From an uncultured Alphaproteobacteria bacterium (lineage in GTDB: Bacteria > Pseudomonadota > Alphaproteobacteria > Micavibrionales > Micavibrionaceae): a DNA stretch of 64,000 nt. Every line of letters begins with the position of its first letter. The first letter of the stretch is position 1. The notes under the pieces were generated by a model. The model was given only the letters and a program-made list of their open reading frames with translations. It searched no databases and was not told the DNA's origin. This document shows, piece after piece, positions 56,348 through 60,960 of the stretch. The stretch is taken from the NCBI GenBank assembly GCA_900696495.1, contig CAADGI010000005.1:124001-188000 (forward strand), given 5' to 3'. The position numbers were made by a program, and so were the translations under genes.

Positions 56348-56383
56348 GGACCTGAATTATTGAATTCATCCATGGGGTCGATC

Positions 56384-57295
56384 ATGCAATTTTCTAAAAA
56401 TCTAGTTCTCGGGCTTGTCATGCTGGGCGCCCTTACCGCCTGCGAAAGAATGTCCAAACCTTATCTGCGCGATGAGGTCGCCGACCGCCTCGCCCACCCG
56501 GTCTGGATGGTGGAGCGCGAAATTCCCGCCGGCCCGTTTGCGCTGACCGCTTATGAGCGCATGCATGAACGCCACGCCCCCGCGACGATCTACATCGAGG
56601 GCGACGGCGAACTGACCAACGACTTCCGCATGGATTCAAAAAACCCGACCCCGCGCAATCCTGTTTCGCTCCACCTCGCGACCAAGGATAAATCCAAGAA
56701 CGTCGCCTGGATCGCCCGCCCCTGTCAGTACTACGGCATCACGAATTGCGGCGAAGCCTACTGGGGCAACGAGCGTTTCAGCCCGGAAGTCATCAGCTCC
56801 TACAATCACGCGCTGGATGAAATCAAAAAGCGCTGGGACATCGATTCATTCCACCTCGTCGGCTTTGACGGCGGCGGCGCAGTGGCCACAATCTTGGCAG
56901 CACAGCGCAGTGATGTCCTGAGCCTGCGCACCGTGGCCGCAACGCTGAACACCGACGTCTACGCCAGCGAGCACCAGATCCCGCCCCTCGCCGGATCGCT
57001 CAACCCCATCGATTTCGCGCCCGAACTCGCCGACGTCCCGCAGACACATTATATCGGCGGTCAGGACAAGGTGATTTCACCCGCGCTGCTGCACAGCTAT
57101 TTGCAGGCGGTGGGCGATTCAAACTGCGTGCAGTACCGCTTTATACAAGAGGCGGAGCACGATCAGGGCTGGGTCGAGAAATGGCCTGAATTCCTCGCCG
57201 ACAAGCCGCGCTGCGAAGGTCCGGTCGAGCCCGTGGAATTCGTGCCTGAGCCCGAACCCATTCGCATCCAGCCGGAAACGCCGGATAAGAAATAA
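56384..57295 (+). CDS. alpha/beta hydrolase-fold lipoprotein with Asp at the nucleophile position
   Basis: A 303-residue protein with lipobox LTAC (Cys20). IYIEGDGELTNDF, ARPCQYYG and PLAGSLNPIDFAPEL match a family of secreted alpha/beta hydrolases whose nucleophile elbow usually reads GYSGGGA. Here it is GFDGGGA, so Asp162 replaces Ser. His remains in EAEHDQGW. The protein may be inactive, or may use Asp as some dehalogenases and epoxide hydrolases do. Starts at TTG 56360 or ATG 56372 are possible. A terminator follows. Confidence 0.75.
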   Translation: MQFSKNLVLGLVMLGALTACERMSKPYLRDEVADRLAHPVWMVEREIPAGPFALTAYERMHERHAPATIYIEGDGELTNDFRMDSKNPTPRNPVSLHLATKDKSKNVAWIARPCQYYGITNCGEAYWGNERFSPEVISSYNHALDEIKKRWDIDSFHLVGFDGGGAVATILAAQRSDVLSLRTVAATLNTDVYASEHQIPPLAGSLNPIDFAPELADVPQTHYIGGQDKVISPALLHSYLQAVGDSNCVQYRFIQEAEHDQGWVEKWPEFLADKPRCEGPVEPVEFVPEPEPIRIQPETPDKK

Positions 57296-57569: not shown

Positions 57570-58790
57570 TTATGCCGCCCGCTCCAGCTCCTGTCTTGGC
57601 CCGAAGAATTCGAAACGCACTTGCGACGCGGGGATGCCCCATTTCAGCAGGTCGTGGTAAATGCTCACCATGAAGGGCTGCGGGCCGCAGAAATAATAAT
57701 CCGCATCGCGTCCGGGCAGTAAGGATTCAATCAACTCCGCCGTGACAAATCCGGTGCTGGCGTTTCCTGTGCGGGTTCCGGCATCGCTGTAACGGTAATG
57801 GACTTTTAGCTTCGGGTGTTTCTTTTCCAGTGCATCAACGGTCGCTTTGAAAGCCTGGACCTGTTCATTCAAGCAGGCATGGATGAAGACGATGTCGCGC
57901 TCCGGCATGGTGTCGAGCGCGGTCAACAAAATGCTCATGATCGGCGTGATGCCGACCCCTGCCGCCAGCAAAACCAGCGGGCGGTCATGCTTCTCGGTCA
58001 CATCGAGGAAGAATTCCCCGCAGGGCGGCGCAATCTCAACCGTATCGCCGACTTCAATCCTGTCATGCAGCCAGTTGGAGACAAATCCGGCTGGCGTATT
58101 CGCTTCCGGCGGCACTTCGCGTTTCACGCTGATGCGGAAATGCTCTTGCCCCGGTTGATCGGAGAGACTGTAATTCCGCATGGTCGTTTGCCCGTCCGGC
58201 ATTGCCACGCGCACGGTGATATATTGCCCCGGCTTGAACGCAGGCAACGGCGCGCCGTCGGCGGCGACCAGGTAGAACGATGTGATATTGCTGCTTTCTT
58301 TTTCTTTACGGGTGATGCGGAAGTTTTTGAATCCTTCCCACCCGCCCGGTTTTTTGGCGTTCTCTTCATAAATCTGCTTTTCGCGACCGATTAAAATATC
58401 GGCCAGGAAACCATAGGCTTCCGCCCATGCGCTGATAATCTCATCCGTTGCGCCATCGCCTAATACTTCCCTGATGGAAGCCAGGAGGTTTTCACCAACG
58501 ATAGGATAATGTTCCGGTTTAATCATCAGCGAGGCATGTTTTTGCGCGATAAGCTCTACCGCCCCGCCCAGCACTTCCAGGTTGTCGATATTGGCGGCAT
58601 AAGCGGCAATCGCGCCGGCCAGGGCGCGTTGCTGCTTGCCGGCGGTCTGGTGGGCGGGATTGAAGAAAGGCGCGACTTCCGGGTTATGCTTGAACATCCG
58701 CTTGTAAAAATGCCTGGTGAGCGTTTCACCATGCTCCTGCAGGATGGGCGCAGTCGACTTAACGATCTGGACAGTTTTTTCAGCAAGCAT
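57570..58790 (-). CDS. hmp: flavohaemoprotein, nitric oxide dioxygenase
   Basis: A 406-residue protein: globin domain 1-140 (HGETLTRHFYKRMFKHNPEV, proximal His in IKPEHYPIVGENLL), FAD domain about 155-260 (MRNYSLSD) and NAD domain about 265-400 (LLAAGVGITPIMSIL, YFCGPQPFM). It oxidises NO to nitrate with O2 and NAD(P)H. Upstream are TTGACT and TTTAAT with 17-bp spacing and an NsrR-like operator over the -10/+1 region; nsrR is divergent. Confidence 0.95.
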   Translation of the reverse strand: MLAEKTVQIVKSTAPILQEHGETLTRHFYKRMFKHNPEVAPFFNPAHQTAGKQQRALAGAIAAYAANIDNLEVLGGAVELIAQKHASLMIKPEHYPIVGENLLASIREVLGDGATDEIISAWAEAYGFLADILIGREKQIYEENAKKPGGWEGFKNFRITRKEKESSNITSFYLVAADGAPLPAFKPGQYITVRVAMPDGQTTMRNYSLSDQPGQEHFRISVKREVPPEANTPAGFVSNWLHDRIEVGDTVEIAPPCGEFFLDVTEKHDRPLVLLAAGVGITPIMSILLTALDTMPERDIVFIHACLNEQVQAFKATVDALEKKHPKLKVHYRYSDAGTRTGNASTGFVTAELIESLLPGRDADYYFCGPQPFMVSIYHDLLKWGIPASQVRFEFFGPRQELERAA

Positions 58791-58804
58791 GGAAGATCTC
58801 CTTT

Positions 58805-58825
58805 ATATGTATTTTAGATACATAT
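58805..58825. promoter_or_regulatory. NsrR-type operator between hmp and nsrR
   Basis: A 21-bp dyad made of ATATGTATTT (58805-58814), a central T and AGATACATAT (58816-58825); nine of ten arm positions match. It resembles the NsrR consensus of two AAGATGCATTT-like arms. It overlaps the -10 of hmp and the likely -35 of nsrR, so it can repress both genes. Confidence 0.75.
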
Positions 58826-58852
58826 TAAACTGCATGCTATATTCGAAGTCAA
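58824..58852 (-). promoter_or_regulatory. hmp promoter
   Basis: On the minus strand TTGACT (58852-58847) and TTTAAT (58829-58824) with 17-bp spacing. The transcription start falls inside the operator at 58805-58825. Confidence 0.75.
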
Positions 58853-58880
58853 ACGAAAAGATTTCCGGAAAGCGTTCAGT

Positions 58881-59351
58881 ATGCAACTTACAATCTTCAC
58901 CGATTACGGCCTTCGCAGCCTGATGTTTCTCGCGGCGCACCCGGATCGGTTATGCAGTGTCCGGGAAATTGCAGACCATTACGGGATTTCATACAATCAC
59001 CTGGTCAAGGTCGTGCATCGCCTGTCGCAACTCGAATATGTGCAAAGTGTGAAGGGGAAAGGCGGCGGCGTCAAACTCGCTAAAGACTCCATGACGCTCA
59101 AACTGGGCGACATCGTGCAGACGCTGGAGCCGAATATGGAGCTCGTTGAATGCTTCAATTCCGATACAAATACATGCCGCATTACCAATAGCTGCCAGCT
59201 AAAACACTATCTGTTCGATGCGAACAGGGCGTTTATTGCATCATTGAACAACCATACGCTCGCGGATACTTTGAAAAATACCCGTGCATTTAAAGGGCTT
59301 GATGCTCTCACCGCCCTTACAGACAAGAATGGTGCTGCCGAGAAGGATTGA
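58881..59351 (+). CDS. nsrR: NsrR, nitric oxide-sensing Rrf2-family repressor
   Basis: A 156-residue Rrf2 regulator with an N-terminal winged helix (about 1-75; VREIADHYGISYNHLVKVVHRL, wing GKGGGVKLA). Three Cys (C91, C99, C105) sit where NsrR binds its NO-sensitive cluster, and Asp8 (FTDYG) is kept. Divergence from hmp with an NsrR-type operator between supports the name over IscR. A -10 (TATATT, 58838-58843) with a weak -35 over the operator implies autoregulation. The last seven codons overlap the 3' end of the convergent tRNA-Thr gene. Confidence 0.92.
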   Translation: MQLTIFTDYGLRSLMFLAAHPDRLCSVREIADHYGISYNHLVKVVHRLSQLEYVQSVKGKGGGVKLAKDSMTLKLGDIVQTLEPNMELVECFNSDTNTCRITNSCQLKHYLFDANRAFIASLNNHTLADTLKNTRAFKGLDALTALTDKNGAAEKD

Positions 59352-59431: not shown

Positions 59432-59460
59432 TGCATAAACAGCTTTCCCTGCCCTGTCAA
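59432..59460 (-). promoter_or_regulatory. tRNA-Thr promoter
   Basis: On the minus strand TTGACA (59460-59455) and TATGCA (59437-59432) with 17-bp spacing, 27 bp upstream of the mature tRNA 5' end. Confidence 0.6.
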
Positions 59461-59538
59461 TTTAAGGTCCAAAGAAACTTGCACCTTTTTTAATTTTATG
59501 TAAAGAATCAAAGAAAAAACAAACAGGGACTGGGAGCG

Positions 59539-59937
59539 ATGGAACAGGTAACACCAAATCCCGCAGACATTCTCGTCGTTGATGACAGTGAAATCATGCG
59601 GCATATGATTGCCGAGATTCTTAAAAATTCTGAAATTCTTAAAAAAGACGACGCCCCCGTAGCAACAGCGAGCAGCGGCGAGGACGCTCTTGCAAAGATC
59701 GCCAACCGTAAATTTAAAGTCGTTGTCACTGATAACAACATGCCCGGTATGTCAGGTGTCGAACTGACCGAAGCGATCCGCCAGCAACTTCATGATCAGG
59801 AAACGATCATTATCGGCACGTCTGTTAACCGTGAGGCCTGGATCGCCGCCGCCTTTAAAAACGCCGGGGCAAACCGATTCATATCCAAGGAAGAGGCGCA
59901 TATGCTTCCGGAAATGATCGCTGAACTGGCAACCTAG
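59539..59937 (+). CDS. single-domain response regulator 1
   Basis: A 132-residue receiver domain with no output domain. The acidic pair is in LVVDDSE, the phospho-acceptor Asp in VVTDNNMPGMSG, then Thr/Ser in IIGTSVN and Lys in RFISKEEA. RBS GGGAG lies 4 nt before the ATG. An element TTGCAC...TATGTAA lies 40-65 bp upstream and recurs before the next two genes. It may relay phosphate or bind a partner, CheY-like; no kinase is nearby. Confidence 0.9.
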   Translation: MEQVTPNPADILVVDDSEIMRHMIAEILKNSEILKKDDAPVATASSGEDALAKIANRKFKVVVTDNNMPGMSGVELTEAIRQQLHDQETIIIGTSVNREAWIAAAFKNAGANRFISKEEAHMLPEMIAELAT

Positions 59938-60014
59938 CATTTGAAATATAAAGAATTTTTGAATTTTCTCTCTAAAAGTTTGCAGTATTTTTTATATTTA
60001 TGTAAATTATTGCC

Positions 60015-60470
60015 ATGCTGAACCAGGACTCAAGAATATTAATTGCCGACGACACAGAGATGGCGCCTTTCATGTTGAAAAAACATTTACCGGCCTTGTT
60101 CGGCATGCCTAAGGAAAACATAGACTGGGCCAAAAGCGGCGCGGCGGCGCTGAATCTTTTACAAACAAATCGCTATGACCTCCTTTGCACCGATATGGAG
60201 ATGGCCGAAATAAAAGGCGGGCAAAAGATAGGGATGAATGGCGATGAATTAATCGCGCAATTGCTGCAAGACCCAAGCTTGAATCACATGCCTGTAATCC
60301 TTATTTCAGGCAATAAATACTCCGAAGCAAACCCCTATGGCGCCGATGCATCCTGCAAAAAGGGCGACTGGCATGAATTGCCGAAAGTCATTGAACGTGC
60401 CTTCATCTGCGTTGCTTCACGTAAAGACCGCTTAAATCCTCAGCCCGCTGTTCCCACCCCATCCCCCTGA
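60015..60470 (+). CDS. single-domain response regulator 2
   Basis: A 151-residue receiver-only protein. Acidic pair in LIADDTE, phospho-acceptor Asp in LLCTDMEMAE, Ser in ILISGNK and Lys in ASCKKGDW. The beta3-alpha3 loop carries an insert (EIKGGQKIGMNGDE) absent from its neighbours. The C-terminal tail is Pro-rich. The TATGTAAA element ends only 8 bp before the ATG and no Shine-Dalgarno is visible. Confidence 0.85.
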   Translation: MLNQDSRILIADDTEMAPFMLKKHLPALFGMPKENIDWAKSGAAALNLLQTNRYDLLCTDMEMAEIKGGQKIGMNGDELIAQLLQDPSLNHMPVILISGNKYSEANPYGADASCKKGDWHELPKVIERAFICVASRKDRLNPQPAVPTPSP

Positions 60471-60531
60471 TACCCGGACTTCCCTGCACATAAAGCTTGT
60501 CTTTTTTCTATATTTATGTAAAAAACAAACC

Positions 60532-60960
60532 ATGCAAATAAATGAATTAAAAATGATCCTGGCAGAAGACCACAAAAATCTTCGCCTGATGCTGGCGCAA
60601 GTATTCAAAACCCTTGGCGTGCCCGAGGGGAATATCCGCCTTGCTGAAAACGGCGAGGAAGCGTTTGCGCTTCTGCAAGAAGAAGAGGCCGATCTCCTCT
60701 GGAGTGATACCGAGATGCCTAAATTGAATGGCTTGCAATTAACACAGGCTATTCGCAAAAAAGAAGAAACCAACGGCAGGCATACAATTATTATCCTTAC
60801 TTCAGGCAAAGACTTTGAAGAAGCCGCCAGTGACGCCGGCGCCGACAACTTTTTGTCAAAGCCGGTTGGTATGGATCTAATCAAAAAGACGCTTAACACC
60901 GTTTTACAGTGTGTCCAGCGGCCTGCTCCGGCATCCCGCCTTCCGGAAGCGCGCCTCTAA
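60532..60960 (+). CDS. single-domain response regulator 3
   Basis: A 142-residue receiver-only protein. Acidic pair in ILAEDHK, phospho-acceptor Asp in LLWSDTEMPKLNG, Thr/Ser in IILTSGK and Lys in NFLSKPVG. It is closest to CheY-type receivers of the three. The TATGTAAA element lies 12 bp before the ATG, again without a clear Shine-Dalgarno. Confidence 0.9.
   Translation: MQINELKMILAEDHKNLRLMLAQVFKTLGVPEGNIRLAENGEEAFALLQEEEADLLWSDTEMPKLNGLQLTQAIRKKEETNGRHTIIILTSGKDFEEAASDAGADNFLSKPVGMDLIKKTLNTVLQCVQRPAPASRLPEARL

Follow-up and report, generated by a model that had tools for sequence, protein, structure and literature searches.

The window, meaning the whole 64-kb stretch of DNA analysed here, is part of a contig (C5) of 205,971 bases in a 2.04-Mb genome (G000) of 25 contigs from the Micavibrionales, which have been termed alphaproteobacterial (PMC9933672). 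The gene order at the locus of interest is hmp, an Rrf2-family gene, tRNA-Thr (minus strand), three genes for receiver proteins, dcd, murA and hisG. Domains and protein sequences suggest the names hmp, murA and hisG, and the Rrf2-family gene is presumably NsrR-like. The flavohaemoglobin gene (minus strand) and the Rrf2-family gene (plus strand) diverge within 57570-59351, and the palindrome ATATGTATTTTAGATACATAT that lies between them at 58805-58825 is likely to be an operator. The ORF lists of two other genomes of the same genus, G001 and G002, have no such pair here; in them tRNA-Thr comes no more than about 0.4 kb after the gene that corresponds to 56360-57295. The best -35/-10 pair found for the divergent tRNA-Thr promoter has its -35, TTGACA, at 59455-59460 (minus strand) and a -10-like TATGCA at 59432-59437, with a spacer of 17 (TTGACA-N17-TATGCA). 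TTGACA is also present upstream of tRNA-Thr in G001 and G002, where the best pair has a spacer of 16, and the upstream regions of tRNA genes held too few clear promoters to build a genome consensus. Insertion into the 3' end of the tRNA is ruled out by the position of the receivers on the 5' side of tRNA-Thr, and an RNA element in the leaders was discarded as Rfam, at the gathering threshold, returns tRNA-Thr alone. Among the publications listed on response regulators in Micavibrio, on Micavibrionales and on orphan tandem response regulators, no title or opening of an abstract refers to this locus, and no paper on promoters and transcription starts in Micavibrio aeruginosavorus was found.

The three genes lie on the plus strand and encode single-domain receivers: gene 1 (59539-59937, 132 aa), gene 2 (60015-60470, 151 aa) and gene 3 (60532-60960, 142 aa). 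Their PF00072 scores are 76.3, 39.5 and 71.2 bits, all above the Pfam cut-off of 30.2 bits. The invariant residues are D16, D65, S95 and K117 (alignment numbering) in gene 1, D12, D13, D60, S98 and K115 in gene 2, and D13, D59, S91 and K110 in gene 3, the acidic residue, the acceptor Asp, the Ser and the Lys being invariant both within each ortholog set and across the three paralogs. Identity to gene 1 is 28% for gene 2 and 29% for gene 3, and gene 2 has an eight-residue insertion after the phospho-acceptor Asp that is shared with G001 and missing in G002. The plasmid records that match gene 1 number 233, all at less than 60% identity, with five listed at 35.2-36.7%. DivK and CpdR are alphaproteobacterial single-domain response regulators. 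MrrA is another, described as working with several kinases, and its type of single-domain regulator is named after the FATGUY motif (PMC5964349). The window receivers resemble all of these in consisting of a receiver domain without an output domain, but differ from them in being tandem and fast-evolving. No FATG was seen by eye in the three translations. The NCBIfam CpdR equivalog has a cut-off of 180 bits, far above the 21.7 and 41.8 bits of genes 2 and 3, and it was not among the best 25 of 77 families listed for gene 1.

Each of the three receivers in the window is preceded by TTGY-N14/15-TATGTAAA, and the preliminary description of tandem receivers with a like upstream element is borne out by both the ORFs and the elements, which lie where it had placed them. 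Candidate promoter 1 (59479-59506, plus strand) reads TTGCAC-N16-TAAAGA, contains TTTATGTAAA at 59495-59504 and is conserved in G001 and G002; candidate promoter 2 (59980-60008, plus strand) reads TTGCAG-N17-TAAATT and candidate promoter 3 (60497-60524, plus strand) TTGTCT-N16-TAAAAA. The three hexamers (59479-59484, 59980-59985 and 60497-60502) are each followed by a run of six T and then by TTTATGTAAA, which starts at 59495, 59997 and 60513. The spacing of 12-13 bp to TATGTAA that had been reported is reproduced (12, 13 and 12 bp) when counting begins just after the TTGnnn hexamer; begun just after TTGC or TTGT, the count is 14, 15 and 14 bp. Candidate promoter 1 is followed by an A-rich stretch (59507-59538, plus strand), of which the first part is conserved in the three-species alignment and in which the window copy has the Shine-Dalgarno-like GGGAG.

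The same three genes are found between tRNA-Thr and dcd in both G001 and G002, with the element before each, so that it precedes nine of nine genes. The preliminary description had taken co-transcription from one start, together with absence of the element elsewhere or from relatives, as evidence against itself, and the element is present in both of the close relatives examined. The spacing from the TTG of the -35 to the TA of the -10 is 16-17 bp in all nine copies, within the 16-18 bp of a sigma-70-type core promoter. TTGC is found in eight of the nine, TTGT being confined to gene 3 of the window, and TTTATGTAAA, which is nearly palindromic, is almost invariant over the nine, one copy reading CTTATGTAAA. 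Of the parts originally assigned to the element, TTG and TTTATGTAAA are kept; the T6 run is not conserved and there is none at gene 2 of G001. A final T in the -10 hexamer is present only at gene 2 (TAAATT), genes 1 and 3 having A (TAAAGA, TAAAAA). The three elements are missing from the output of a consensus sigma-70 scan, which instead lists a pair that overlaps candidate promoter 3, TGCACA-N18-TATATT at 60485-60514.

The receivers themselves are far less conserved. At the protein level gene 1 of the window is 44% identical to its counterpart in G001 and 30% to that in G002; gene 2 has 73 and 35%, and gene 3 has 69 and 51%. The neighbours dcd, murA and hisG share 92-100% identity among the three species. 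By the Nei-Gojobori method the receivers have dN values of 0.18-0.71 and these neighbours 0.01-0.05; the corresponding dS values are 0.8-3.2 (partly saturated) and 0.4-0.8. Compared within one species pair, a receiver exceeds a neighbour in dN by a factor of at least about four. In three-species alignments the invariant columns before genes 2 and 3 amount to 67-71% at -30 to -1, compared with 33-40% at -60 to -31, and for both genes 77% of the first 30 coding bases are invariant, later 30-base blocks being at 15-57% in gene 2 and 38-67% in gene 3. For gene 1 the invariant part lies further upstream, at 83% in -60 to -31 (where the element and the first part of the leader lie), 53% in -30 to -1 and 47% in the first 30 coding bases. 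As the element has been kept before all nine genes whilst the receivers diverged, the earlier statement that it outlived gene divergence holds good.

In each of the three species the TAAANN hexamer of gene 2 ends 6 nt before the ATG; at gene 3 the distance is 7, 6 and 6 nt. The window copies of these two genes have no Shine-Dalgarno-like tetramer at -18 to -5, gene 1 having one; on both grounds the suggestion that genes 2 and 3 are near-leaderless is supported. As judged from the sequence, both would give leaderless mRNAs starting at the A of the ATG, and the leader of gene 1, going by the position of its -10, would be about 26 nt long. The 464 kb of the genome that was sampled has 563 candidate ATGs, of which 169 are preceded by a Shine-Dalgarno-like tetramer. 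Loose -35/-10 pairs at these 563 ATGs numbered 11 and 8 at 6-7 nt as compared with 3.2 per position elsewhere, an excess of 19 sites against 6.5 expected, one of the 19 being gene 2. Under a stricter promoter definition the 563 candidate starts showed one site at 6 nt and two at 7 nt, which is no clear excess. Leaderless transcription has been reported for 375 mRNAs in Caulobacter crescentus (PMC4117421) and for 171 transcription start sites in Sinorhizobium meliloti (PMC3616915). The elements before genes 2 and 3 resemble such alphaproteobacterial leaderless promoters in a start at or beside the ATG, in having no need of a Shine-Dalgarno sequence and in belonging to the same class, but here one promoter is repeated before adjacent paralogous receivers and the starts are predicted from sequence.

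An important consideration is whether the element is particular to the receivers. The 64-kb window has three exact copies of TTTATGTAAA, all at the receivers, and the genome as a whole has nine; allowing up to one mismatch raises the count in the window to eight, as against 2.05 (sd 1.47) in shuffles, and none of 100 shuffles reached eight. In the window and a further 400 kb of this genome, three of 414 ORFs of 100 aa or longer have exact TTATGTAAA at -100 to +30, two of them being genes 1 and 2; gene 3 was dropped by the simple gene caller used, probably owing to a longer overlapping antisense frame at 60432-60899. Across the three genomes of the genus the TTTATGTAAA 10-mer is found in 23 places, eight of them at the receiver locus. 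The form TTGC-N12-18-TTATGTAAA matches eight times in the genus, always at the receiver locus, the ninth copy (window gene 3) having TTGT. The more relaxed TTG-N14/15-TTATGTAAA gives 15 matches in the same three genomes, nine at the receiver locus and three before one conserved small gene with TTGACA. This small gene, which lies beside a miaA-like gene, has TTGACA-N17-TAAATA with TTTATGTAAA in all three species (L079, which is G000:C12:174794 on the minus strand, L076 and L075). An inverted repeat, TACATAAAATTTTATGTA, is present in G000 and G002 and, with one change, in G001 (L096:1489-1510, L094 and L107); in G002 it sits upstream of a gene, and similar strings occur among the matches of other genera. 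The G002 gene is presumably glpD-like.

A genome search for the composite element had been proposed. With the T run, as TTTTNNNATTTATGTAAA with one mismatch, the 58 genomes of relatives gave 75 matches against 74 in a reversed control, which is no enrichment (with two mismatches in the genome itself there were 13 against 7). For TTG-N14/15-TTATGTAAA the 58 genomes gave 84 matches, and its reversed control 37. When 28 of the TTG-N14/15-TTATGTAAA sites in other genera were read, 21 had a downstream frame, with N-termini unlike those of receivers, and in three of the 28 an ATG lay exactly 8 nt past TTATGTAAA, as at gene 2. For the order as a whole the spacing from TTGAC to TTATGTAAA was counted from 0 to 30 bp in 104 genomes, a test in which the elements of the receivers themselves, with TTGC or TTGT, fall outside the count. 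There were 128 matches in total against 57 in the reversed control (a control total, not one by spacing), and the tallest peak was at 12-13 bp, with 34 of the 128 where 8.3 would be expected from an even distribution; the binomial P comes out at 9e-13, which overstates the significance, since related genomes are not independent. This peak has the geometry of the receivers: TTGACA and TAAA come to lie 16-17 bp apart, the separation that a -35 and a -10 should have. Two more excesses, one at 0-5 bp (46 of 128) and a lesser one at 21-24 bp (20 of 128), are not explained by a core promoter.

Given the spacing throughout the order and the matches before genes that do not encode receivers, the element is read here as an ordinary core promoter, and the dedicated promoter class or regulator of the preliminary description, before other genes in the genus too as the element is, cannot be maintained as the main reading. 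A variant of that idea is that the promoter is ordinary but TTTATGTAAA is an operator, at which a dedicated repressor or activator acting on the -10 co-regulates the three receivers. The near-palindromic form of TTTATGTAAA and its near invariance in nine copies whilst position 6 of the -10 varies are in keeping with this, as are the recurrence of the 10-mer in the genus, one conserved place being inside a longer inverted repeat, and the excess at 0-5 bp. However, a core promoter alone accounts for the order-wide TTG-TTATGTAAA spacing before non-receiver genes, and the restriction of TTGC-N12-18-TTATGTAAA to the receiver locus within the genus leaves no wider regulon in that form; such an operator is thus a rather unlikely explanation. 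It could also be the case that the three genes are one operon transcribed from promoter 1 and that the inner elements are relics of duplication. The genes are on the same strand, separated by gaps of 77 and 61 bp, and scanning of these gaps revealed no terminator-like site. Nevertheless, the inner elements are conserved in three species at a fixed distance from the ATG although the DNA before them and the genes have diverged, and in the window genes 2 and 3 lack the Shine-Dalgarno sequence, all of which makes a single operon distinctly improbable. That the elements within one genome are alike through recent gene conversion and not selection is scarcely credible, for each retains a gene-specific signature in all three species, indicating that there has been no recent homogenisation.

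The origin of the array was approached through a tree of 37 rows, consisting of the nine receivers and 28 other receiver domains of the genome, five further PF00072 matches being left out. The nine form one group (66/83; 70% of bootstraps, the bootstrap not having settled), which weakly favours a single origin; gene 2 of G002 is on a long branch, and the tree neither shows nor rejects a replacement of the receiver there. For comparison, 57 dcd matches yielded 30 loci, 27 of them from other genera, in which ORFs of at least 70 aa were searched by blastp (E 1e-4) up to 1.5 kb upstream. A receiver array common to the family can be set aside, as a receiver lies upstream of dcd in only two of the 27 loci (G007 and G065); the other 25 gave none by blastp within 1.5 kb, a search in which the upstream region of one locus (L122) was incomplete and which diverged receivers could escape. 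In 15 of the 27 loci dcd has a tRNA-Thr(ggt) close by. G007 and G065, from one other genus of the family, each have one single-domain receiver upstream of dcd, without the element as far as reading of the sequence goes (L124:677-1174 and L130:581-1183). Tandem duplication of a promoter-receiver unit in the lineage of the genus would be the simplest account.

The genome has 19 matches to HATPase_c and 15 to HisKA, none of which is on contig C5 (206 kb), and neither profile matches contig C19 of G001 or C14 of G002; kinases of the HWE and HisKA_2 families were covered only so far as these two profiles match them. The earlier proposal of a phosphorelay without a linked kinase is therefore sustained as regards the kinase, but only receivers are present and a relay as such does not follow. 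The receivers keep the residues needed for phosphorylation (acceptor Asp, Ser and Lys), and on our analysis are most likely phosphorylated by unlinked histidine kinases, acting by protein contact or phosphate shuttling. They share size and domain family with the CheY of chemotaxis, but with 49.8, 25 and 46.3 bits they fall far below the cut-off of 189 for the NCBIfam CheY equivalog (PRK10610), and no CheW match turned up in G000, G001 or G002, while 7 of 14 control genomes have one. A role in chemotaxis is disfavoured by this lack of CheW matches, and the receivers are probably not chemotaxis CheYs.

Taking these observations together, we favour, at a probability of roughly 0.7, duplicated receiver units that have their own sigma-70-type core promoters, with genes 2 and 3 leaderless and the kinases unlinked. 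According to this scheme one core promoter and one single-domain receiver gene would have been duplicated in tandem in the interval between tRNA-Thr and dcd in an ancestor of the Micavibrio-like genus. Every copy would retain its own sigma-70-type promoter (TTG at -35, 16-17 bp, TAAA at -10), so that each receiver could be transcribed separately; transcription of genes 2 and 3 would start at the A of the ATG, and gene 1 would have a short leader with a Shine-Dalgarno sequence. The receivers would then diverge rapidly whilst the promoters and the first ten codons of gene 2 stayed constrained, and the proteins would accept phosphoryl groups from histidine kinases encoded elsewhere. We infer the use of sigma-70, the transcription starts, leaderless translation, the duplication and the biochemical role. 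The strict leaderless scan and the scanned pair that overlaps promoter 3 count against this explanation, and the missing T of the -10 at genes 1 and 3, the near-palindromic TTTATGTAAA and the excesses at 0-5 and 21-24 bp count against a core promoter. A bolder reading, which we think unlikely, is of an array for receiver diversification, in which fixed leaderless promoters, read by one regulator through TTTATGTAAA, drive interchangeable receivers that track changing kinases in bacteria without CheW-type chemotaxis; this would also have the first codons of gene 2 be part of the initiation signal and the receiver proteins change at least about four times faster than their neighbours.

The arrangement is real and conserved, and is one of ordinary parts in unusual repetition, tidy and not exotic. 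It offers a clean natural case of promoters being kept while the signalling proteins behind them drift, and a hint of leaderless starts in Micavibrio-like bacteria. Should the receivers prove to be interchangeable outputs that have their kinases in common, the locus would serve as a small test bed for change of receiver specificity under fixed expression.
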